Origin: a candidate division WOR-3 bacterium
Lineage (GTDB): Bacteria > Hydrothermota > Hydrothermia > Hydrothermales > JAJRUZ01
Direction of reading: 5' to 3'
DNA length: 33,465 nt
Assembly: GCA_039804025.1 (NCBI GenBank)
Contig: JBDRZP010000022.1
Location: 1 to 33,465 of the forward strand
In this document: one piece after another, positions 1 through 10,657 of the stretch
How the letters are laid out: the number at the start of each line of letters is the position of its first letter
Numbering within the stretch: the stretch's first letter is position 1
Notes under the pieces: model-generated
The model's database searches: none
The model's input: the letters and a program-made list of their open reading frames with translations, nothing else
Told to the model about the DNA's origin: nothing
Made by a program: the position numbers and the translations under genes

Positions 1-807
1 ATTTAATGCATAATCTAAAACTAAATTCTGATAAATCCTTGTTTTTCCAGATAAACCAAGATTGAATCTAACATTTTCATTTTTGTAATTTATGCTATCT
101 CTTATTCCAGTTTGAGAACTAATCAAATAGGGAATAAAATCATTTCTTTTTTCTTTTGAATAAATTCTTTCAGGAATTATAATTTCTGCAGCATTCATCC
201 AAACAGATGGATTATCCTTTGGGATTGAAGGGAAAAAATAAATTTCAAAAGTTTCTCTTGGTCTTGTTCTTCCTAATACAATCTTCCACTCGTTTTTCTC
301 CTTACTTTCAAACCTTATAGAGGAAAAGGGAATTTTGAATTCACATGACCAGAAAGAATCAGAAATAAATGATTTTACTTCAAAATATGTATCAAAAGAC
401 ATATCTTCTGTTTCAATAGGTGTTGGACCTTTAGTTAAATCAGCCTGAACTCCTAAAGGGTTTGTTATAAAAACATAACCTTCTTTTCTTCCACCATAAG
501 TATTAAGATATATTAAAACCATATCATCCATCCCAATTTCATCTCTTTTTGTTAGAGTTTTCCTTATAGTTTTAATATCATCATAGCATTTAAAGGCAAA
601 GTATATATTCTCATTATCATAACCGATAAATACTTCAGTTTTGAAAGAAGGAATTTTCCCTTCTTCTGGTTGAAATTCAATAAATTCAGTTACTTTTGCT
701 GCATTTTCCCATTCTTTATCAATTACACCATCTATTTTTGGACTTTCTTTGAATCTCTCAAGTGTTATTGTATAAGATGTTATTAAAATTAAAAAGAATA
801 GGTTCAT
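1..807 (-). CDS. DUF5916 / CBM9-like outer-membrane-associated protein, partial
   Basis: The reading frame is open for 269 codons from ATG at 807 to the window edge, so the C-terminal part is missing. An N-terminal hydrophobic stretch (MNLFFLILITSYTI) looks like a signal peptide. Residues about 20-70 carry a CBM9-like pattern: IDGVIDKEWENAA, then FIEFQPEEG, then a T-x-V-x-x-GYD-x-x-NIYFAF block. This is the layout of the family whose C-terminal half is the DUF5916 beta-barrel. The start is supported by AGGAGGTG about 5 nt upstream. The preceding ABC transporter stop lies only 2 nt away, so the gene is probably the last member of the lanthipeptide transcription unit. Whether it has any role with the peptide is unknown; DUF5916 proteins occur widely in FCB bacteria without lanthipeptides. 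Confidence 0.8.
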   Translation of the reverse strand, partial: MNLFFLILITSYTITLERFKESPKIDGVIDKEWENAAKVTEFIEFQPEEGKIPSFKTEVFIGYDNENIYFAFKCYDDIKTIRKTLTKRDEIGMDDMVLIYLNTYGGRKEGYVFITNPLGVQADLTKGPTPIETEDMSFDTYFEVKSFISDSFWSCEFKIPFSSIRFESKEKNEWKIVLGRTRPRETFEIYFFPSIPKDNPSVWMNAAEIIIPERIYSKEKRNDFIPYLISSQTGIRDSINYKNENVRFNLGLSGKTRIYQNLVLDYALN

Positions 808-809
808 AA

Positions 810-2339
810 TTACACCTCCTTTTTATTTTCTTTTAAATCTAAAATCCTGTCAAAAAATTGATGCCATTCATCGCCTTTATGCATTATAACAACAAGAGTT
901 TTATCCCTTGATAAATCTAAAATATGTTTCATTAAAACTTTTGTGCTCTCTTTATCTATATTAGCAAGAGGCTCATCTAAAATATATAAATCTGCTTCCT
1001 TTGAAAAAATAAGAGCAATGGCTAATTTCTGCATATTGCCAATAGATAATTCATGAGGATATTTATCAACAAATTCCATCAATCCAAAATCTTTTAAAAG
1101 TTTCTCCTTAATAGGTAATTCTTTTATCTTTAATAAAGGAAATTCAAAAGGAAGTGTTAAAGAGGAAATTCTTGGGGGTAAAATAACATTTCCACTTTGC
1201 ACTTTAAGTAACCCACTCATTATATTTGCAAGTGTTGTTTTTCCTGAACCATTTGGTCCTTTTATCAATATTTTCTCACCCTTTTTAATTCTTAATGAAA
1301 AATCTTTAAATACAAAATTTTTATCATAAGAAAAACAAACATTTTCTAAAATAACCTCATCTTTTACCTTATAAAATTTCACTTTTTCTTCCTTTTCAAA
1401 TTCATATATCCTGTTTATTATTGTAAGACTTTTGTTTAATTGGGCAAATGGTGCAAAAAATTGAGAAACTGCTGTAACACTCCTCCAGAAGGCAGTTACA
1501 AAGGCTAAATAACCACCAAAAGTCATTTTCCCTTTTAACAAAAATATAGCACCTACTAATAAAGAACAAAAATCACTAATATTCATTATAAGATAAATAC
1601 CCGTATTATAAGTAGTTATAATCTTGAAATTTCTGTAAAGAGCATTTAAATATTTATTGAAGGCAAAAATAGTTGATTCAAGAACTTTTCCGAGAAGATT
1701 TAAAATATTTACTGCTTTATATGAAGAAATATTTTTATTAAGAAAATTAATAAATTCGCTCTCTGTTTCCCTCTCAACTAAAGTTGCAGATTTTATCTTT
1801 TGAGATAATAAATTTGAAAAATATACAATAAATGGAATTAAAATAAACATAATAAGGGTAGCTTGCCAGGAAATATATATAAGAACAGAAGTAAATGCAA
1901 TTACCCTTGTTAAATTGGTGCTTATATTTCTTATAGAGGATATAAAGAGGGGGAAAGCTTCCATTACATCTTTATAAACTCTTCCTATGAAATATCCTTC
2001 ACCTTTTTGTAAAATATTTGCATAATCTTTATTATAAAAGGACATCAATGTTTTTTTAAGAATTTTACTTAAAATTTTATTTTCAAAAGATTTGCCCCAT
2101 AGTTCAACAAAAAAAGAAATTAAATTAATAAATATGCCTAAAAATAAATACGAAGATATTAAAATAAAGAAAATTTTTAAACTTTTTCTGATAACTGCTT
2201 CATCAAAGATTAATTTTGTTAAAATGGGATGAAAGATTGCCTCTATTGCATAGATTAAACAAATGGTAAATATAAAAAGGGAAAATTCTTTATTTAACCC
2301 CTTTAAAAAATAAAAAACTTTTTTTATATTATCTCTCAT
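810..2339 (-). CDS. ABC transporter, fused TM and ATPase domains (probable lanthipeptide exporter)
   Basis: This is a 509-aa half-transporter with about six transmembrane helices in residues 20-300 and an ATPase domain from about 325. Walker A is GPNGSGKTT at 361-369, a degenerate signature LSIGN is at 431-435, Walker B LYILDEP is at 452-457 and the H-loop His is H487. No N-terminal C39 peptidase domain is present, so it is not a leader-cleaving LanT; removal of the leader must be done elsewhere. The start overlaps the LanKC stop in an ATGA arrangement, which implies translational coupling. The ATPase domain is short, about 185 aa, and a clear Q-loop Gln is not obvious. Export of, or immunity to, the modified peptide is inferred from position. 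The family assignment is secure, the substrate is not. Confidence 0.88.
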   Translation of the reverse strand: MRDNIKKVFYFLKGLNKEFSLFIFTICLIYAIEAIFHPILTKLIFDEAVIRKSLKIFFILISSYLFLGIFINLISFFVELWGKSFENKILSKILKKTLMSFYNKDYANILQKGEGYFIGRVYKDVMEAFPLFISSIRNISTNLTRVIAFTSVLIYISWQATLIMFILIPFIVYFSNLLSQKIKSATLVERETESEFINFLNKNISSYKAVNILNLLGKVLESTIFAFNKYLNALYRNFKIITTYNTGIYLIMNISDFCSLLVGAIFLLKGKMTFGGYLAFVTAFWRSVTAVSQFFAPFAQLNKSLTIINRIYEFEKEEKVKFYKVKDEVILENVCFSYDKNFVFKDFSLRIKKGEKILIKGPNGSGKTTLANIMSGLLKVQSGNVILPPRISSLTLPFEFPLLKIKELPIKEKLLKDFGLMEFVDKYPHELSIGNMQKLAIALIFSKEADLYILDEPLANIDKESTKVLMKHILDLSRDKTLVVIMHKGDEWHQFFDRILDLKENKKEV

Positions 2340-4978
2340 GAAATTTGATCTAAAGTAAAATCTGCTTCATCAAGGGTTAAGACTCTATGAATTGTTCGCA
2401 TAACACCAGCAATTCCTGTTGCATAATCACAGGAGATTCTAAAAAGATTATCCCCTGGAACAGCATATCCATCAGGAAAAGAAAGTAAATAAATATCTAT
2501 AAGCCCTGTTAGAGGACGATTCATCATCTCCAAATATTGAACATCATTTGTGAAAATATAAACATCAATTAGAGTGTCAATAAAGCTTGATATTCCGAAT
2601 AAAATTCCTGGAAAAACTGAATATTTTCTACAAATATCCGGAATCAACCTTTTTAATTTATTAAAAAATTTATATCTTAATAATACTTTGATAATTCCTG
2701 CGGTACCGCACTCTATGTAATGTTCTAAAGTTTTATCCCCTATTGCCTCAGGAAAACTTATAACATCTTTTTCTATTTTTCTTCCATTTTTTAAATCAAA
2801 AAAAACTCCCTTTATTCCATACTCAAAATACTTTTTTTCCTTAGTAACCTGATATAATCTTAATAAGAAAAGGGAAACTCCACTCTGTCCATATCCATAT
2901 CCTAAATATACTTTATTTTCATATTCCCAAAAAATGCCCTTTTTATTTATTTTACTTACTTCAATTATTTTATTTCCATAATTTATTGCCCTTTCCAGAA
3001 ACTTTGCCTCTGAAGTAATTAGATAAAAAAATAAATTGGTAAGTCCAATTCCTGCCATTCCATAAAAAAGGGAATGATTTTTAAATTTTAAAGGACTTTT
3101 TTCGGTAAGTTCAATTATCTTTAAAGATTTATCTTCATATCCTAATTCCCAGAGTGCCCAGGCAATTCCTGAAAGTCCTGTAATAAAACCAGGAGGATAG
3201 TCCTTTTCATTTACTCCTTTTAATTTTTTTTCTATCCAATAAAATGCCTTTTTAGGTATATCAAAATTACATTTTTTTAAAGCATATAAAATTCCGGTGG
3301 CACCAAAACCTAAAGAGAGAGAATTAGTGTGATAGAGAAAGGGATCGCTTGGAAATAACCTATCTTCCCTTTCATCCTCTATGTGATTAAGAATAAAATT
3401 TCCGAATCCTTCCACTATTTTTTGTAATCTTTCTTTACTTAATTTTTTTGTGATAAATCCTGCTTTTTTAACAACTTTATTTGAAGAAACCAGAGATTTT
3501 CTTACATATTTGGAAATATAAGGAATTTTATTAACATTTTCATTAACACTATTAATAAGAATATTTATACAATTGTAAATCCTTTTTGACCAGCCTAAAT
3601 CTTTGAGTATCATTTTTAATACATTATCATAAAGATCTTTTCTAAGATCAGAAAATACATTTATAGGAAAAAGAAAATAAAACATAAGTGCACCCATACT
3701 GTAAAAATCAGCATTAAAAGAAAAGAAATTTCTATCCACTTTTCTAAAACCAGGGGTAAAAAGTAAAAATGGTTTATCAATTCCTTTTCTTATTGCACCT
3801 TCAAAGTCTATAAATTTAACCTTATAATTTTTTGGATTAACAATTACATTGTAAGGGGAAATATCACCTAAAATTATCCCTTTTGAATGAATAATTTCTA
3901 AAGCATCTAAAAAGTTTAAAAAAACTTTTTTATATATCTTGTAAAATTCTTTACTTTCCCTTGAGTTAAAATTTAATTTTAAAATAGGATGAAATTTTGA
4001 AAAAAATAATTCACGCAAATTTTTTTCACGGATATACTCCATAACTAAAAAAGTATGCTCCCATTCTTGAAATAATTCTATAGGTTTGGGTGCAATATTT
4101 GTATCTTTTAAAATTTTTAATATTTCGTATTCTTTATGCAAAAGGGTTACTGCGTCATTCCCCAAATTATCTTTACAAGTATAAGGTCTTGCCTCTTTTA
4201 TTACTACATATTTATTTGAATTTCTATCTTTAGCTAAATAAACTCCGCCGGTATTGGAAAAATGAAGAGCCTTTTCAATTAAATACTGTCCATTTTTTAA
4301 AGCCAACTCGTTAGGCTCTTTATCTTCTAAAGGAAATGGATCTTTTACCCAAGGAGGAAGATTAAAATATGGGAGTCTCTCGTCTTTTATATATTCTCCA
4401 TTAGGAGACACAATCATATATTCCTTCATTCCCATTATATCTACAAATGTAATTCTTTTAAATCCTCCGTATCTATAATATAAGACTTTGCAATCCTTAT
4501 ATCTTCTATCTGAAAGAATATAAGGTCCTTCTTCTTCTTTAAGTTCGCTATATAGAATTTCTATTATTTCTTTAAATTCATTTTCATTTGGATAAATAGT
4601 AATGAATTTTCCTGAAGCACTTCTTTGCCAATCCTTGAAATTCATCATGGAAAGAATTGTTTTATCCAGAGCAAATTTAAAAGGAATTTTTTTATCTATT
4701 AGAATTTTTGCAACTTTTGCAAGTATTCTTTCTGCATTATTTATGGTAGATGAAATATGAATTTTCCAGCCCTGAGTCATTATTTCTGAATTTAGAGGGA
4801 AAACATGAAACCATAAACCATCTCTTATTATTTTCCAATTTTCTTTTTTATTATTCAGTATTTGCATAATTATGTTTAAAAACTCATTAGAGGGGGAATA
4901 CATATTTTCAAAAGGCTCATAAAATTTGTCTGAAAGTAAAGTATATAAATATTTTATAACATGCCTTTTACTTCTCAT
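2336..4978 (-). CDS. lanKC: Class III lanthipeptide synthetase (lyase-kinase-cyclase)
   Basis: The 880 aa match the usual length of LanKC enzymes. Residues about 40-220 form the phospho-Ser/Thr lyase-like region (WKIHISSTINNAERIL at 71-86, then GPYILSDRRY and YYRYGGF). The kinase domain runs from about 230 to 480, with Lys261 in VVIKEAR, catalytic GDISPYN at 371-377 and metal-binding DFE at 391-393, which is the form typical of LanKC. Residues about 545-870 form a LanC-like toroid with repeated Gly-rich segments (LSLGFGATGILYAL, GLSGIAWAL, FYGMAGIGL, GYGYGQSGVSL, IECGTAGI, DYATGIAGVM). The Cys and Cys-His zinc ligands of class I, II and IV cyclases are absent, which points to class III rather than LanL. 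The gene follows the precursor gene by 71 nt across an attenuator hairpin and has no visible Shine-Dalgarno sequence, so it is probably made at much lower levels than its substrate. Confidence 0.92.
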   Translation of the reverse strand: MRSKRHVIKYLYTLLSDKFYEPFENMYSPSNEFLNIIMQILNNKKENWKIIRDGLWFHVFPLNSEIMTQGWKIHISSTINNAERILAKVAKILIDKKIPFKFALDKTILSMMNFKDWQRSASGKFITIYPNENEFKEIIEILYSELKEEEGPYILSDRRYKDCKVLYYRYGGFKRITFVDIMGMKEYMIVSPNGEYIKDERLPYFNLPPWVKDPFPLEDKEPNELALKNGQYLIEKALHFSNTGGVYLAKDRNSNKYVVIKEARPYTCKDNLGNDAVTLLHKEYEILKILKDTNIAPKPIELFQEWEHTFLVMEYIREKNLRELFFSKFHPILKLNFNSRESKEFYKIYKKVFLNFLDALEIIHSKGIILGDISPYNVIVNPKNYKVKFIDFEGAIRKGIDKPFLLFTPGFRKVDRNFFSFNADFYSMGALMFYFLFPINVFSDLRKDLYDNVLKMILKDLGWSKRIYNCINILINSVNENVNKIPYISKYVRKSLVSSNKVVKKAGFITKKLSKERLQKIVEGFGNFILNHIEDEREDRLFPSDPFLYHTNSLSLGFGATGILYALKKCNFDIPKKAFYWIEKKLKGVNEKDYPPGFITGLSGIAWALWELGYEDKSLKIIELTEKSPLKFKNHSLFYGMAGIGLTNLFFYLITSEAKFLERAINYGNKIIEVSKINKKGIFWEYENKVYLGYGYGQSGVSLFLLRLYQVTKEKKYFEYGIKGVFFDLKNGRKIEKDVISFPEAIGDKTLEHYIECGTAGIIKVLLRYKFFNKLKRLIPDICRKYSVFPGILFGISSFIDTLIDVYIFTNDVQYLEMMNRPLTGLIDIYLLSFPDGYAVPGDNLFRISCDYATGIAGVMRTIHRVLTLDEADFTLDQIS

Positions 4979-5005
4979 AATACATAAATTTTAAAAAAAT
5001 ATTTT

Positions 5006-5030
5006 AAAAGGGGCGAGGCTCCCTCGCCCC
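5006..5030 (-). terminator. Attenuator hairpin between lanA and lanKC
   Basis: A perfect 9-bp G+C-rich stem (GGGGCGAGG / CCTCGCCCC, 5010-5018 with 5022-5030) has a 3-nt loop. Read on the minus strand it is followed by TTTT and then AT-rich DNA. It lies 20 nt after the precursor stop and about 30 nt before lanKC. It is the most G+C-rich structure in the window. Partial termination here would yield a short, abundant precursor mRNA and a rarer read-through transcript for the enzymes, a common arrangement in RiPP clusters. Confidence 0.75.
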
Positions 5031-5049
5031 CACTTATGTTATTGCTCCC

Positions 5050-5157
5050 TTATTCTATCTCATTGCAGCAGTTAGCTATACTGCTAGTGAGACTTACAGG
5101 AGCCTTTGCGCTAGGCATTGCTACTGGTAATTTTTGTAGACTTAGTACTACTGCCAT
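5050..5157 (-). CDS. lanA: Class III lanthipeptide precursor peptide
   Basis: A 35-codon gene runs from ATG at 5157 to TAA at 5050, below usual gene-calling cut-offs. The N-terminal half contains VVLSLQKLP (residues 3-11), which resembles the ILxLQ-type leader motif recognised by class III synthetases. The C-terminal half is a core rich in modifiable residues: Ser22, Thr24, Ser25, Ser26, Cys30 and Cys31. Ser22-x-x-Ser25-x4-Cys30 fits the S-x2-S-x(2-5)-C pattern from which class III enzymes form labionin or lanthionine. The C-terminus after the Cys pair is NEIE. A very strong ribosome site (AAGGAGGTG) sits 5 nt upstream, in contrast to the synthetase. The leader cleavage site cannot be read from the sequence; a cut near Pro15 to Pro20 would leave a core of 15-20 aa. 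The function is inferred from the motif and from lying just ahead of LanKC. Confidence 0.85.
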   Translation of the reverse strand: MAVVLSLQKLPVAMPSAKAPVSLTSSIANCCNEIE

Positions 5158-5161
5158 CTCA

Positions 5162-5171
5162 CACCTCCTTT
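5162..5171 (-). promoter_or_regulatory. Strong Shine-Dalgarno site of lanA
   Basis: Read on the minus strand this is AAAGGAGGTGT, nearly the full anti-16S complement, followed by GAG and the ATG. Most other genes in the window have weak or no such site, so this fixes the start and suggests high translation of the precursor. Confidence 0.85.
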
Positions 5172-5178
5172 CTTTTAC

Positions 5179-5210
5179 CCCTGAGTTGGACTTTAACCAA
5201 TTTCTCAGGG
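5179..5210 (-). other. 5'-leader hairpin upstream of lanA
   Basis: CCCTGAG (5179-5185) pairs with CTCAGGG (5204-5210), and the stem continues as TTGG (5186-5189) with CCAA (5197-5200) across a 3-nt bulge. It ends about 8 nt before the ribosome site. If the AT-rich TATAAT at 5215-5220 is the -10 box, the transcript would begin almost exactly at this hairpin, placing it at the extreme 5' end where such structures often protect mRNA. Confidence 0.6.
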
Positions 5211-5214
5211 TCTT

Positions 5215-5220
5215 ATTATA
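5215..5220 (-). promoter_or_regulatory. Candidate -10 box for lanA
   Basis: The minus strand reads TATAAT within a TATATATAATAAG tract. No good -35 hexamer or TGn extension is visible at the right distance, so the call rests only on the -10 match and on the spacing to the leader hairpin. Confidence 0.35.
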
Positions 5221-5233
5221 TATATAACAATTT

Positions 5234-5253
5234 AAAAAGCCTTTTCGGTTTTT
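5234..5253 (-). terminator. AT-rich terminator after the sigma-like gene
   Basis: On the minus strand AAAAACC-GAAAA-GGcTTTTT forms a short stem with a T tail, just beyond the stop codon at 5267. The adjacent T20 homopolymer on the plus strand (5249-5268) runs into the stop codon. Such a hairpin would separate this gene from lanA. Confidence 0.45.
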
Positions 5254-5266
5254 TTTTTTTTTTTTT

Positions 5267-6265
5267 TTAACGAATCTGGAATTTTTTTATGATTAAAACT
5301 TTCTTATTATTTTTAGGAGAAAGAAAATTAATTTTCCCTTTTAAATAATCCTCTCCATTAAATATAAAAATTCTTTTCTTTGCCATCTGTTTTTTAAAAT
5401 CCCTCAAAGAATTTTTGTTTGAAAAAATTACCAAAAGCTCATCCTCTTTAATATTTACATTCTCCAAATCTTCATATAATAAAATTCTTATAAAACAGAA
5501 TCTGCATTTTAAAAAAATTGAAAAATCCTTTCTCTTATATTCTTTTAAATCACATGAGCTACATTCACATAAATATTTCAAAAAATTTCTTAAAATATCT
5601 AAAAAATCCTTCGCCTTAATTAACCTGTATAAACTCATATATTTTTTCATATATAAAATATTCTTTCGTCTCCAATCTTTATAATAATCTTTATTATCTT
5701 TTCTCCATTTAATAAAATAATCAGGATTTCTCCTTCTCCAATTTTCCCGAAGTTCTTTCACCTTCTCTTTATTCTCATTTAACCACTTCCTCCTTAATTC
5801 ATTTCTACTTCTTTTTAAAGGATTAATTTTACTCCTTATCTCACTCCATATATCCTTCATTTTTTCATAAGAAATATTCAATTTTTCTGAAATTTCTTTT
5901 AAATTAAACCCTTGCCTTATTAAATTTATAATCCATAACTCTTTTTCATTTAATCTTTTGTATAAATTATTTTCAAATCTTCTTAAAAATTCATCACTTC
6001 TTACTTCATTTAAAATCTCAATTTCCTCATAATCTTTTAAAATTAATCTTTTTTCCTTTTTTAAATAATTTAAAAAATGATTTTCCAAGGACTTAAAAAA
6101 ATAATTCCTAAACTCCATTTCATCCCCTTTAAATTTTTCTTTACATTTTTGAAAACATATAAAAGCTTCTCCTAAAAGATCATCTTTATGATGAAAAAAA
6201 TTATATTTTTTACAAAAATTTAAAATTTTAATATTGATTTCTTTTAAATATTCTTCAAAATTCAT
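5267..6265 (-). CDS. Sigma-70-like protein with Trp/Arg-rich repeats and Cys cluster
   Basis: The protein has 332 aa. Residues about 25-72 resemble sigma region 2 (DDLLGEAF, then FRNYFFKSLENHFLNYLKKEKR). Residues 105-147 resemble region 4 with a helix-turn-helix (GFNLKEISEKLNISYEKMKDIW). A basic segment at 155-213 follows with repeated W-R/N-P-x-Y units (WLNENKEK, WRRRNPDYF, WRKDNKDYY, WRRKN), like repeats seen in some phage-related DNA-binding proteins. A Cys cluster follows (C233, C235, C238, then C254, C257), probably a zinc ribbon, and then an uncharacterised C-terminal tail. This is not a housekeeping sigma factor. It is likely a DNA-binding regulator or ECF-like factor. Its position 110 nt upstream of lanA on the same strand makes it a candidate regulator of the lanthipeptide genes, but nothing in the sequence proves this. 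Confidence 0.6.
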   Translation of the reverse strand: MNFEEYLKEINIKILNFCKKYNFFHHKDDLLGEAFICFQKCKEKFKGDEMEFRNYFFKSLENHFLNYLKKEKRLILKDYEEIEILNEVRSDEFLRRFENNLYKRLNEKELWIINLIRQGFNLKEISEKLNISYEKMKDIWSEIRSKINPLKRSRNELRRKWLNENKEKVKELRENWRRRNPDYFIKWRKDNKDYYKDWRRKNILYMKKYMSLYRLIKAKDFLDILRNFLKYLCECSSCDLKEYKRKDFSIFLKCRFCFIRILLYEDLENVNIKEDELLVIFSNKNSLRDFKKQMAKKRIFIFNGEDYLKGKINFLSPKNNKKVLIIKKFQIR

Positions 6266-6455
6266 ATTTAAAGCAAATTATAATAATATTCAAAATAAAT
6301 TATAATATTAATATGTTAATTTTATCAAAAATGCTTGAGAGGTAAGAAAATTTCAAAAAAAATTGGAAAAATTGATAAGATTAATTTAACTATCAGTCTG
6401 AAAGAATTAATTTTAATGAGATCTGAAGTTTGCTTAAAGATTATATTTTTAAGAC

Positions 6456-6484
6456 TTGAAATTTTATTTTTTTTACAGTATAAT
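6456..6484 (+). promoter_or_regulatory. Promoter of the 6548-7755 operon
   Basis: TTGAAA at 6456-6461, a 17-nt spacer and a consensus TATAAT at 6479-6484. It is the best sigma-70 promoter match that I found in the window. The rest of the 6266-6455 gap is AT-rich DNA in which I see no gene. Confidence 0.75.
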
Positions 6485-6489
6485 TTATA

Positions 6490-6507
6490 TTACAAATTAA
6501 TTTGTAA
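6490..6507 (+). promoter_or_regulatory. Perfect 18-bp palindromic operator
   Basis: TTACAAATTAATTTGTAA reads the same on both strands and starts 5 nt after the -10 box, over the expected transcription start. The downstream gene at 6712 encodes a small winged-helix regulator, so it is a likely autoregulatory operator. Confidence 0.65.
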
Positions 6508-6547
6508 ATAAAAGGTTCAAATCCTGTAAAACAAAAATTTTTAAAAA

Positions 6548-6715
6548 ATGGAAAATAAAAAATCACTAAAAAGTGCAGGTCCCATGATATTTTTAGGTTT
6601 TCTTTTTATCGGATTGGGAATAGGCTTTCTTTTCGGAAAAGTTGCTGTAGGTTCTTCTATAGGTATGGGTTTCGGTTTTATACTTTGGGGAATTCTCTAT
6701 TTTCTTAAAAAATGA
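6548..6715 (+). CDS. Small two-helix membrane protein
   Basis: The 55-aa reading frame runs from ATG at 6548 to TGA at 6715. A short Lys-rich N-terminus (MENKKSLKSAG) is followed by two Gly-rich hydrophobic segments (residues about 12-30 and 35-52) and a KK end, as in small membrane proteins that travel with membrane regulators. It is not recognised as a named family. It lies directly behind the promoter and palindrome, and its stop overlaps the next start as ATGA, so the two are co-translated. It is a probable partner or structural unit of the operon. Confidence 0.65.
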   Translation: MENKKSLKSAGPMIFLGFLFIGLGIGFLFGKVAVGSSIGMGFGFILWGILYFLKK

Positions 6716-7005
6716 AATTCAAAGAACTTGACCCAATAATTCATGAAAAAACAAGGCTTTCAATACTCATTTATCTTCTGCAGAATAAAGAAGTAGATTT
6801 TTCAACACTTAAAAAAATTACTGATACTACTGAAGGAAACCTTTCCTCTCATTTGAGGGTGCTTGAAGATAATAAATTAATTGAAGTTAAAAAAACTTTT
6901 GTGGGCAGAAGACCAAAAACTTTTTATAAATTATCTGATTCAGGTAAAAATAAACTTTTAGATTACCTTGATAAACTAAAGAAAATTTTAAAAGAAATAA
7001 AATAG
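6712..7005 (+). CDS. Winged-helix transcriptional regulator
   Basis: A 97-aa single-domain protein of the HTH_34/ArsR-MarR-like type. Residues about 8-75 form the winged helix (IHEKTRLSILIYLLQN, then FSTLKKITDTTEGNLSSHLRVLEDNKLIE, then a wing with GRRPKTFYKLSDSG). It ends in a short coiled helix. This class commonly precedes multi-pass membrane proteins and acts as a local repressor. The palindrome at 6490-6507 is its likely target. No ligand-binding or metal-binding residues are apparent. Confidence 0.85.
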   Translation: MKFKELDPIIHEKTRLSILIYLLQNKEVDFSTLKKITDTTEGNLSSHLRVLEDNKLIEVKKTFVGRRPKTFYKLSDSGKNKLLDYLDKLKKILKEIK

Positions 7006-7038
7006 GGTTCAAATCCCCCTTAAATTTTTATATAAAAT

Positions 7039-7755
7039 ATGAAAAAAGAAATTGAAGAAATCCTTGAAACCATAGATATACTTAAATATATCTCTCAGAG
7101 AGCTAAAAAAGAAATTAAACACTTTGCTATATACATGATAATATTCGGGTTTTATATTTCAACCTGTGTTTTTATAACTCTTATAACAGGAAAATACATT
7201 TTATGGTTTTATCTTTTGCCTCTTGCCTTCTTTTTCTCTACAATCCACGTTTCAGGCATAATTTTCTCTATTTTAATATGGGGAATCTTTTCTATAATCT
7301 ATTTCTTTATAATTCCAAAACTTGGAATACCCCTATATATTTCTGCAATTTTTATTGGAATTCTTATTACCTTTGGTTATTACATGAACTACTACATAGG
7401 AATTAAAAGAAAAACTTATAAACCTCTCAATTCAAAATTAAGTGTAATTCCTAAAATAGGCATTTTCTGGGGATTTGCCTTTGCTGGAATTATATTTAAT
7501 ATCTTTCTTTTTTATAATGTTATTGGAGAAGATATAAATAAAATTGTCAATCCCCTTTATAGCTACACAACCGGAATGGGTCTTTTTGTTACAGGATTTG
7601 TTCTTCCATTTTTTTATATTCTTGGAATTATAGAAGTTATATTTATTCCTCTTCTTAATTATATGAATAATGCCTTAGCCTATATCACCAATGGGATTGT
7701 TGGTTTACTTATGGCATTTTATTCTATTTACCTTTTAAAAAAGAAAGAGAAATAA
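7039..7755 (+). CDS. Multi-pass membrane protein of unknown function
   Basis: The 238 aa contain a charged N-terminal helix (residues 1-25, KKEIEEILETIDILKYI) and about six transmembrane segments. Proteins of this layout, with a soluble amphipathic start and several membrane helices, often sit downstream of small winged-helix regulators. The family is not recognised. It has no Shine-Dalgarno sequence. An 11-nt motif, GGTTCAAATCC, lies 33 nt before the start and recurs 34 nt before the first gene of the operon. It ends 1 nt from the convergent lipoprotein gene. Confidence 0.6.
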   Translation: MKKEIEEILETIDILKYISQRAKKEIKHFAIYMIIFGFYISTCVFITLITGKYILWFYLLPLAFFFSTIHVSGIIFSILIWGIFSIIYFFIIPKLGIPLYISAIFIGILITFGYYMNYYIGIKRKTYKPLNSKLSVIPKIGIFWGFAFAGIIFNIFLFYNVIGEDINKIVNPLYSYTTGMGLFVTGFVLPFFYILGIIEVIFIPLLNYMNNALAYITNGIVGLLMAFYSIYLLKKKEK

Positions 7756-7765
7756 TTTATTTCTT
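7742..7765. terminator. Possible bidirectional hairpin between convergent genes
   Basis: AAAGA(G)AAATAA pairs with TTATTTCTTT around 7742-7765 and covers both stop codons. It is AT-only and has one bulge, so it is weak, but no other structure separates the converging transcripts. Confidence 0.3.
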
Positions 7766-8473
7766 TATATAAAAACTTTTCCTTCTTTCTACATATGCTC
7801 CAAAAACACCCTTTACCCACTCTTCCTCTATCCTATCACTCCTGTTTAAATTCCAGTAATAAAGATCTTCATTTTCAGCCCTGACATAAACCCTGTAAAT
7901 ACCCTCAGATTTAAATGCACTTTCCCTCCTGAAAAGATCAAAGAGAGTATCAGGTGAGAAAAAAATATAAAAAAGTGAGTCCGGAGTATTCTCTAAATAA
8001 ATAACATAAAATTTCGCTCCTTCACTTTTATTCCATATAAGTAAATTGTTAGAAGGAACATAAATCGTATCGTAAATGGGATAAATTATATTAAAATCAG
8101 TTGGAACCTTTGTAACCTTGAGAAGCTCCCTTGAATCAGGAAACTCAATTTTAAGGGTACAATCTGTACCTGAGGGAACATAAAAAGTATCATAATATAC
8201 AAGATATTCATTTGAATCTATGTCACTAACTATTTTTTCTTTAAATAAATATTCTTTACCCCCAAATTTTATTTTAACAGAACACCCAGAAACACCTTGT
8301 GATGGAACTTCATCTGGACTATATAACCTATCAACAAAAACAATCTGCTCTTCAATTTTTTTACTTGACTTTAATACACACCAAACAATGTAATCCGGAA
8401 TAATCACCTTTTCTATTTCTTTTTTACAGGAAATAAAAATTAAAGTCAAAAGAAAAATTTTTAATCTTTTCAT
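7757..8473 (-). CDS. DUF4249-like lipoprotein partner of the TonB receptor
   Basis: The 238 aa begin with a lipoprotein signal (MKRLKIFLLTLIFISC, Cys16 as the probable lipidated residue). The rest is beta-rich with no enzyme motif. The first part (VWCVLKSS, SPDEVPSQGVSGCSVKI) resembles the N-terminal strands of DUF4249 lipoproteins, which are usually encoded directly after carboxypeptidase-regulatory-domain TonB receptors, exactly as here. It starts 1 nt before the receptor stop, so it is the last gene of the operon. An accessory surface lipoprotein is the likely role. The ligand is unknown and the family match is from memory of pattern rather than a search. Confidence 0.6.
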   Translation of the reverse strand: MKRLKIFLLTLIFISCKKEIEKVIIPDYIVWCVLKSSKKIEEQIVFVDRLYSPDEVPSQGVSGCSVKIKFGGKEYLFKEKIVSDIDSNEYLVYYDTFYVPSGTDCTLKIEFPDSRELLKVTKVPTDFNIIYPIYDTIYVPSNNLLIWNKSEGAKFYVIYLENTPDSLFYIFFSPDTLFDLFRRESAFKSEGIYRVYVRAENEDLYYWNLNRSDRIEEEWVKGVFGAYVERRKSFYIKK

Positions 8474-10657
8474 CTAAAAAATAATTTTTATTTCAAAACT
8501 TGGAACAAAGGGAATTTGATATAATTCTCGCCTTACAGGTGGTTCTTTATCATAATCATAATAATATAAAAATACATTTTTTCTATTGTAAACATTTATT
8601 ATACTCAAGGAATAAAAGCCCTTAATTTTTTTTATTTTGAAATCCCTTGAAAGGGAAATATCAAGCCTGTGATAAGGTGGAAACCTTACACTATAAGGAT
8701 AGGATTCAATTTCATCCCATATAACCTTTGGATATCTATCTGGATATGGATTATAAAAGAATCTATACCTTTTAATAACATCTGTGAAGGGTGAACCAGT
8801 TGTATATAAAAAATTTAACCCCAGATCTAAATTGAATATTAACTTATAAAATAAACTTAAAGAAAAATTGAAGGTTTTATCCCACCTCATTGAATGATAT
8901 TTGTTTTCCTTTTCAAATTTTCCGTGAGACTTTAATACTGTCAAACTTAAATTAAAATTTAATTTTCCAAAGGTCTTTTCAATAAAAGAATCAAAACCGT
9001 AACTTTCTCCTTGCCCTTTTAAAAACAAGGTTTTATCAGGATTTAATGGGTCATAACTTTTTATTTCATAGTCAAGAATGTAATCATACTTCTTGTAAAA
9101 GATTTCAAAATCAATTTTACCCCAATCTGGCAAATAGGAAATTCCTGTTATATAATGTTTTGAATTCATTGGCCTATAACCATCAAAAATTGTTACCCAG
9201 TAATAAAAGGGATCAAAAACTTCTGAAAAGTTAACAGCTATTAGATACTGATTGAAAACTCCTGTTGCAAACTTTATTGCAAGGTTTTCCCTCAGAAAAT
9301 ATTTTAAATTAATTCTTGGTTCTATTCTAAAACTTTTAGCATTTCTCTCGGGTGTTTCCTTGATTCTTAAATAAAAATAATTTGTCCTTAAACCCGGATT
9401 AATTCTTAAATTATTTACTTTGAAATTTAATTCAGAAAAGAAAGAAAGGATGTGAGGATTTCCTTTATCAAGTTGTTTAATACCAAAAATATCATTCTGA
9501 AATTTTCCATTTAGATTCTCATATTCAAAACCAAAAGTTTTATCAAAACTTCCCTTAAACTCTCCCTTCCATTTTAAACCAGCTATGGAAACAGGATTCC
9601 AGAGGGAAATAAACTCTCCTATTTTAAAATAACTGAAAAAAGAAGAGAAAAATAAATTTATTTCATGAAAGTTTTTTCTATGTATATAAAAAGTTCTAAA
9701 GGAAAAACCATCATTTCCCCATTTTAAAAGGATTTCATCTTTTTTCTGATAAAATAAATCTCTACTTGTAATGTAGGAGAATTTAAATCTTAAAGAGGGT
9801 GATTTTTCAATCTGATAGGAAGATAAAATATCAAAAAAATGATAGGGAAATTCAAAATCCCTGTTTATCAAAGAAATATATTTATCAAAATAGGTTCTTC
9901 TCAAAAAAACAAGGTAATTTCCCTTAAAAAGCTTTCCTTCATTTAAAAGGCGGAAAGATAAAAAACTTAAAGCTAATTCAAAATTTATTTTTTCTGAATT
10001 ACCAGGTTTTATTTCAGCATATAAAAGAGAGGATAAAGCATTTCCAAATTGAGCCCCATAAGCTCCCCTATAAAATTCATACCTTGAAAGTGCTGAAAGA
10101 TCAAAAACCGAGAAAATTCCACCCAGATGATAGGGGTTATAAAGGGGAATTTCATCAATAAGTGTTAAATTTTCCTGAGGAGAACCACCCCTAACAGAGA
10201 ACCTGCCTGATAAATCTGTTACCTGAACCACACCAGGTAAGGTGGAAACTGTTCTTAAAAGATCTCCTTCAATAAATTTTGGAAGTCTCTTTAAAATTTC
10301 TGTTTCCCTTTTTACGGCAGAAGCCCTTTCCTCTTCAAATTCCTTTTTTCTTGAATAAATGATAATTTTTTCAATTTCTATTTCAATCTGATTTAGCTCA
10401 ACATTTAAAATTTTATTCTCTCCTTCCCTTAATTCCACTTCTAAACATTTTTCCTCATAACCAACAATTTTAAAACATAAAAGATATTTTCCTTCTTTTA
10501 ATTTTGAAATAACATAAAAACCCCTTTCATCTGTAAGTGTTCCTTTATTTAAATCCTTTATATAAACAAAAACAAAAGGAAGAGATTCACTTGTTTTTTT
10601 ATCTATCACCCTTCCAGAAATACTTGAAAAGGCTATAAGAATTTTAAACAAAATCAT
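8474..10657 (-). CDS. TonB-dependent receptor with carboxypeptidase-regulatory domain
   Basis: The 727 aa begin with a short signal sequence. A CarbopepD_reg-like domain follows at residues about 14-95 (ISGRVIDKKTSESLPFVFVYI, then GTLTDERGFYVI, then YLLCFKIVGYEE). The plug domain is at about 115-225, with the typical RGGSPQENLTLIDEIPLYNPYH segment, and the rest is a beta-barrel rich in alternating aromatic strands that ends in FEIKIIF, a terminal strand typical of outer-membrane proteins. It is shorter than many SusC proteins and no SusD follows; the partner is a DUF4249-like lipoprotein. It overlaps or abuts neighbours in a five-gene minus-strand operon. The substrate cannot be told. Confidence 0.9.
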   Translation of the reverse strand: MILFKILIAFSSISGRVIDKKTSESLPFVFVYIKDLNKGTLTDERGFYVISKLKEGKYLLCFKIVGYEEKCLEVELREGENKILNVELNQIEIEIEKIIIYSRKKEFEEERASAVKRETEILKRLPKFIEGDLLRTVSTLPGVVQVTDLSGRFSVRGGSPQENLTLIDEIPLYNPYHLGGIFSVFDLSALSRYEFYRGAYGAQFGNALSSLLYAEIKPGNSEKINFELALSFLSFRLLNEGKLFKGNYLVFLRRTYFDKYISLINRDFEFPYHFFDILSSYQIEKSPSLRFKFSYITSRDLFYQKKDEILLKWGNDGFSFRTFYIHRKNFHEINLFFSSFFSYFKIGEFISLWNPVSIAGLKWKGEFKGSFDKTFGFEYENLNGKFQNDIFGIKQLDKGNPHILSFFSELNFKVNNLRINPGLRTNYFYLRIKETPERNAKSFRIEPRINLKYFLRENLAIKFATGVFNQYLIAVNFSEVFDPFYYWVTIFDGYRPMNSKHYITGISYLPDWGKIDFEIFYKKYDYILDYEIKSYDPLNPDKTLFLKGQGESYGFDSFIEKTFGKLNFNLSLTVLKSHGKFEKENKYHSMRWDKTFNFSLSLFYKLIFNLDLGLNFLYTTGSPFTDVIKRYRFFYNPYPDRYPKVIWDEIESYPYSVRFPPYHRLDISLSRDFKIKKIKGFYSLSIINVYNRKNVFLYYYDYDKEPPVRRELYQIPFVPSFEIKIIF

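Follow-up and report, generated by a model that had tools for sequence, protein, structure and literature searches.

A class III lanthipeptide locus of a diderm candidate division WOR-3 bacterium, probably an exchangeable cassette beside an outer-membrane gene

Most class III lanthipeptides isolated so far come from Gram-positive bacteria, which have no outer membrane to cross. What a class III locus encodes in a bacterium with two membranes, and how its product would leave the cell, are the questions raised by the locus described here. It lies in the window, a 33,465-nucleotide stretch of DNA from a candidate division WOR-3 bacterium. A sequence-only reading had found in it three genes, for a 35-aa precursor, a synthetase, and a coupled exporter, and had placed them in a Gram-negative-type host from a likely uncultured lineage. 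All three frames are present (Table 1). The host is indeed a diderm, with two Omp85 genes and a TonB-plug receptor gene (8474 to 10657), and its lineage is represented here by draft genomes only. That reading had overlooked a sigma-like gene, a shared promoter/hairpin element, an outer-membrane gene, and the exchange of cassettes at this site. With these included, sequence comparison makes it probable that the locus is an exchangeable cassette for making and exporting a class III lanthipeptide. As judged from gene arrangement, the precursor, the synthetase (LanKC), the exporter, and a DUF5916-type outer-membrane gene are one transcription-unit-like array behind the sigma-like gene and the promoter/hairpin element.

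Table 1. Features of the locus (positions in the window) and split synthetase frames at three other loci (positions in the locus named)
Feature	Position	Strand	Basis or remark
Putative CBM9/DUF5916-type outer-membrane protein, N-terminal 269 aa, fourth operon gene	1-807	-	Cut by contig end
ABC half-exporter without C39 peptidase domain	810-2339	-	Pfam ABC_membrane, 50.6 bits; ABC_tran, 70.2 bits
LanKC, class III lanthionine synthetase (lyase, kinase, zinc-free LanC-like cyclase)	2336-4978	-	Pfam, NCBIfam, PDB relatives, residue alignment
Hairpin then U-rich tract, between precursor and synthetase	5009-5031	-	-21.2 kcal/mol, z -3.55
Class III lanthipeptide precursor MAVVLSLQKLPVAMPSAKAPVSLTSSIANCCNEIE	5050-5157	-	NF038160, conserved family
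Promoter/5' leader element common to both cassettes	5158-5253	-	95% identity upstream of radical-SAM precursor
Sigma-70/ECF-like factor, long basic C-terminus, upstream neighbor	5267-6265	-	TIGR02937 sigma70-ECF, 50.7 bits; cut-off, 42.9
Split LanKC frames	L014 7848-9467/9446-10696; L015 7965-9569/9517-10764; L022 5464-6999/6986-8146		

The 880-aa LanKC matches the NCBIfam class III model (NF038151, lanthi_synth_III) over its full length with 710 bits, above the cut-off of 575, in the profile search that the earlier reading had proposed. Its score of 434 bits against the class IV model is under that model's cut-off of 650, which rules out a class IV (LanL) identity; none of 40 genomes of the host's class encodes a protein above the class IV cut-off. 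Lyase, kinase, and LanC-like domains all lie in a single chain (Pfam RamC_N, 206.8 bits; Pkinase, 59.3 bits; LANC_like, 59.7 bits), and the protein thus does not align with kinases only, the outcome that had been named as telling against a class III enzyme. The nearest solved structures are those of ThurKC (8sao, 8sap, and 8sam in the PDB; E about 1e-87). In an alignment of 13 LanKC homologues, the lyase residues K72, H74, R119, and K124 and the kinase residues D372, N377, D391, and E393 are invariant, as are others. The Cys/Cys-His set of zinc ligands is absent from all 13, and its places are occupied in the window protein by E756, L793, and F794. For ThurKC, Lys117, a DFE motif, S726/F770/D771 at the zinc-ligand places, and an LELQL leader have been described (PMC10604976). 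When positions are mapped by eye from the alignment with PDB relatives, Lys117 corresponds to K124 and DFE to D391-F392-E393, whereas the residues at the zinc-ligand places differ. Domains, model score, and residue alignment all agree with the earlier view of a class III synthetase without zinc ligands. Classified on these features, the protein is a genuine class III lanthionine synthetase and a new member of the family.

The precursor frame has an LxLQ leader, a lanKC neighbor, and Ser and Cys in its core. The leader motif is L5-S-L-Q-K-L10 (LSLQKL), the counterpart of LELQL in the ThurKC system, and the core, which likely starts about V21, contains S22-x2-S25-S26-x3-C30-C31. The short LxLQ leader and C-terminal Ser/Cys core are shared with the precursors of NF038160 (class III lanthipeptide, lanthi_III_c), but the window precursor, at 26.9 bits (E = 4e-6), lies 0.1 bit below the curated cut-off of 27. 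We searched for frames with a ribosome-binding site, a start, an LxLQ leader, and a Cys late in the sequence. There were 14 matches in 150 kb of LanKC-bearing loci (the window and seven other genomes), all adjoining LanKC, and 1 match in 235 kb of loci without LanKC, which is the orthologue of a true precursor (in genome G026). These counts rule out a chance frame. The precursor family is also kept in relatives; a lack of conservation there had been named as evidence against the frame. We assign it, from its leader pattern, its lanKC neighbor, and its Ser/Cys core, as a class III precursor, as had been proposed, and as a new member of the family. The closest cores are those of three precursors of G036, which have S-x2-S-S-x3-C-C in common with it. 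The canonical Sx2Sx3C motif is not matched, since the residues read S22-x2-S25-x4-C30 and S26-x3-C30. Compared with the Sx2Sx3C class III precursors (PMC7268733), the Ser pair and downstream Cys are the same, but x4 stands in place of x3 before the Cys and a second Cys adjoins it.

The exporter gene overlaps lanKC by 4 bp, and its product has both ABC_membrane and ABC_tran domains, which bears out the coupling seen earlier. No C39 peptidase domain is among its Pfam matches, and no leader protease was seen within the locus. The cluster had also been called complete and minimal, and here the earlier description fails: a fourth codirectional gene, for a putative outer-membrane protein, starts 2 bp past the exporter stop and leaves the contig. 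The operon runs past 810 into this gene, and the locus may thus be incomplete; all window frames are intact save for this cut. The truncated product scores 22.2 bits against CBM9_1, below the Pfam cut-off; its counterpart at the G002 class III locus is 52% identical to it. The full-length homologue, encoded in G032, scores 46.7 bits against DUF5916 (PF19313; cut-off, 22.6) over ∼90 of 572 positions. No related solved structure was found in the PDB, and a literature search found no paper on DUF5916. The G032 homologue is likewise paired with an exporter, and that exporter is 67% identical to the window's. The window genome (G000) has only five ABC_membrane genes, the window exporter among them, and two DUF5916-type paralogues, each directly after one of the five; the paralogue on contig C17 is 74% identical to the window's. 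The draft assembly is interrupted within the outer-membrane gene, with two N-terminal halves present and the C-terminal half assembled once. A straight run of the window contig into contig C3 was considered and not accepted, because C3 exactly continues C17 and differs from the window at 2 of 171 bases.

The sigma-like gene upstream is a candidate regulator of the locus. Its family is limited to 5 of the phylum's 147 genomes, which belong to a single order, and broken copies are scattered over several sites; the gene is intact at the same place in the sister species G030 and broken beside a radical-SAM cassette on C17 of the window genome. The promoter element that follows it comprises an A-run with CCGAAAAGGCTTTTT, a TATAAT-like box, a hairpin (CCCTGAG...CTCAGGG, 5179 to 5210; -15.1 kcal/mol, z -2.4), and a GGAGG ribosome-binding site. 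Over 81 bp, it is 95% identical to the DNA ahead of the radical-SAM precursor on G000:C17 and G030:C17. An exclusive link of the element to peptide clusters is not supported, as copies also precede other small- or secreted-protein frames or survive as remnants. Further copies or remnants lie at G000:C37:100-161, C39:7058-7146, and C41:71-105 and at G030:C14:517-568 and C3:20395-20441; one copy precedes a secreted-protein gene and another an 80-aa frame with a second hairpin. The hairpin between the precursor gene and lanKC is likely a partial terminator, with the precursor made in excess of the enzyme; the terminator scan marks this stem for the plus strand only (5010 to 5030). At two class III loci from other classes, sigma-54 activator genes lie immediately upstream of the precursor (L018, 10698-11939; L022, 3754-5004), so the type of regulator varies.

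Contig C17 of G030 aligns at 94.2% identity with window positions 5173-10592, which take in the sigma-like gene, the promoter, and the leader hairpin. The similarity ends 15 bp ahead of the precursor start, is absent from 5172 to 693, and is regained, at 95.7% identity, over 623-692 inside the outer-membrane gene, a right-hand junction that rests on 70 aligned bases at the end of the G030 contig. The interval in G030 encodes a Cys-rich precursor, a maturase of the radical-SAM type, and a different exporter, and the outer-membrane gene starts at the expected place after them. No LanKC was found in the G030 genome, which is 96% complete. The radical-SAM cassette is also present in the window genome, on C17, where it is 93.7% identical to that of G030 and stands in the order broken sigma-like gene, promoter/hairpin, radical-SAM cassette, and outer-membrane paralogue; the Pfam domains of this second cassette were read from the near-identical C17 copy. 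The two cassettes share the promoter/hairpin, the outer-membrane gene, and the precursor-maturase-exporter order, but differ in having unrelated maturases and precursors (MKIVNQGKTSV...CPILYCGKFCF... in the radical-SAM cassette) and exporters that are only 27% identical. With flanks that are 94 to 96% identical and an unrelated interior, this fixed site appears to accept either of two interchangeable cassettes, one of them the lanthipeptide genes.

The radical-SAM cassette occupies 952-3985 of L055 (G000:C17) and recurs in L093 (G030:C17), with the precursor MKIVNQGKTSVPLQNECPILYCGKFCFWGYRGDA. Similar Cys-rich precursors (CPALFCK...CLSKYCFLKY) adjoin radical-SAM genes in L062 and L063, and together they seem to make up a modified-peptide family of this phylum. 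A second variable site was found in another genus, where G023 has LanKC, exporter, and precursor at a place where G026 lacks 4.7 kb. The flanks there are 92 to 95% identical, and G026 keeps the barrel and a second precursor; this conserved class III precursor (L061 [G026:C71], 5761-5940) stands in a genome without LanKC. A barrel kept with one precursor but no synthetase may have another job. At the flank orthologous to that of the G045 cassette, G047 lacks the cassette and likewise the barrel.

Within the phylum, LanKC is present in 9 of 147 genomes. The LanKCs of a 2020 survey came mainly from Actinobacteria and Firmicutes (PMC7268733), and the sequence-only reading had called class III systems best known from those phyla. 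Outside them class III is rare but not new, because a scan of named genomes also found LanKC relatives in Bacteroidota, Gemmatimonadota, and Myxococcota. In a LanKC tree of few rows and long branches, two members of the phylum group with proteins of Bacteroidota, Myxococcota, Gemmatimonadota, and Streptomyces, and the rest fall elsewhere. A single ancestral origin in the phylum is unsupported, as there are at least two groups, with the long branches a caution; the split placement fits transfer between lineages. In Corallococcus, a Streptomyces, and G002, LanKC is divided into lyase-kinase and cyclase frames that overlap briefly at the same join; elsewhere the two are fused. G043 has a LanKC fragment.

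An outer-membrane barrel gene is present at six of the seven independent class III loci found in the phylum (the window, G036, G023, G045, G121, and G002), where it adjoins the exporter or lies inside the cluster; no outer-membrane gene lies near the class III loci of the congeneric G040 and G042. In G036, G023, and G045, a PF14905 barrel holds that place; G121 has a distant DUF5916-type protein there (profile built in this analysis, E = 5e-27). A barrel also stands with a radical-SAM maturase and an exporter at G000:C17, G027, G045:C27, and G046. Exporter-barrel pairs without a maturase, overlapping or 3 bp apart, occur in G032 and four further places. Both outer-membrane gene families are widespread in the phylum (108 and 61 of the 147 genomes); this breadth, the involvement of two different barrel families, and the barrel-free loci of G040 and G042 weaken the explanation preferred here.

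These observations might be explained if an ordinary class III cluster had been gained by transfer and the outer-membrane and sigma-like genes were bystanders flanking the insertion point. Such a history would suit the lack of a single LanKC clade in the phylum, the presence of LanKC in no more than 9 of 147 genomes, the cassette of G045 that is missing from the G047 flank, and flanking genes that persist when the cassette changes. It does not account well for two unrelated maturase cassettes that have one promoter/hairpin and one outer-membrane gene in common, for the many unrelated loci where exporter and barrel overlap or are separated by a few bases, or for the joint absence of barrel and cassette from the G047 site. 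We consider this account rather unlikely.

The swap could also be an assembly artefact, produced by misjoining the LanKC cassette at a repeated promoter element. Further copies of that element do exist in the genome, the outer-membrane gene is present more than once and interrupted by contig ends, and the assembly is a draft of 47 contigs. However, the overlap between C17 and C3 is exactly 126 identical bases long, suggesting long assembly words, and the window contig (C22) shares only ∼75 exact bases with C17 at the promoter side. Because the shared stretch is shorter than the overlap, a misjoin on this side is unlikely. C22, like G030, carries an intact sigma-like gene and C17 a broken one, and the same two kinds of end would be common to both cassettes even after a misjoin. 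We give an artefact hardly any weight. It is also highly improbable that the cluster is a relic, decaying or silent and yielding no product: relatives do contain the G043 fragment and the orphan precursor of G026, but no window frame is damaged except by the contig end, the catalytic residues are invariant, and a strong ribosome-binding site and a hairpin are in place.

If the locus is, as we prefer, a working and exchangeable lanthipeptide cassette, the mechanism of ThurKC suggests how its product would be made. The LSLQKL leader would bind the kinase N-lobe, the kinase would phosphorylate Ser/Thr of the core, and the lyase would remove the phosphate to give dehydro residues, to which the zinc-free cyclase would add C30, perhaps C31, to form one labionin or lanthionine. 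The second Cys might enter another ring or a disulfide. Read-through is probably restricted by the hairpin 3' of the precursor gene, and precursor would then outnumber enzyme. From its family, the half-exporter would act as a dimer to take the peptide across the inner membrane, and an unlinked protease would remove the leader. The pairing of the genes suggests that the DUF5916-type protein may let the peptide out through the outer membrane or may recognize it. The cassettes could be exchanged by homologous recombination within two shared regions, the promoter side and the outer-membrane gene, and a population could then change its peptide while keeping its regulation and outer-membrane partner. 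The product peptide, the role of the barrel, and the cell's use of the peptide are all things that we infer.

More tentatively, the site may be a diderm “plug-in” locus, in which LanKC or radical-SAM cassettes, each with its own precursor and exporter, recombine between a constant sigma/promoter/hairpin end and a constant barrel that is their common exit or receptor. If this possibility proved true, the barrel would be the first outer-membrane partner for class III lanthipeptides.

In the ThurA system of Bacillus thuringiensis, the protease is unlinked to the cluster (PMC10604976). The window locus resembles that system in its lyase-kinase-zinc-free cyclase order, its LxLQxL leader, and a cluster without a protease, but it differs in its host, a diderm of an uncultured-type phylum, in its single precursor with an S-x2-S-S-x3-C-C core, and in an operon that includes an exporter and an outer-membrane gene. 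The chemistry of the locus is already known, and the diderm cassette architecture is a novel variation. Beside the systems compared here, the locus appears to stand apart in two respects, its outer-membrane partner and its exchange with radical-SAM genes. A partial literature search found no title or abstract reporting an outer-membrane partner for class III lanthipeptides and no report of exchange between lanthipeptide and radical-SAM cassettes.

With the same enzyme chemistry in a diderm, and an outer-membrane gene coupled to the exporter, the exit of a lanthipeptide becomes directly testable. The cassette-exchange pattern can be searched for in metagenomes. The exchange of lanthipeptide and radical-SAM genes at one site suggests that a secreted peptide is changed as a unit, while its regulation and outer-membrane partner are retained.
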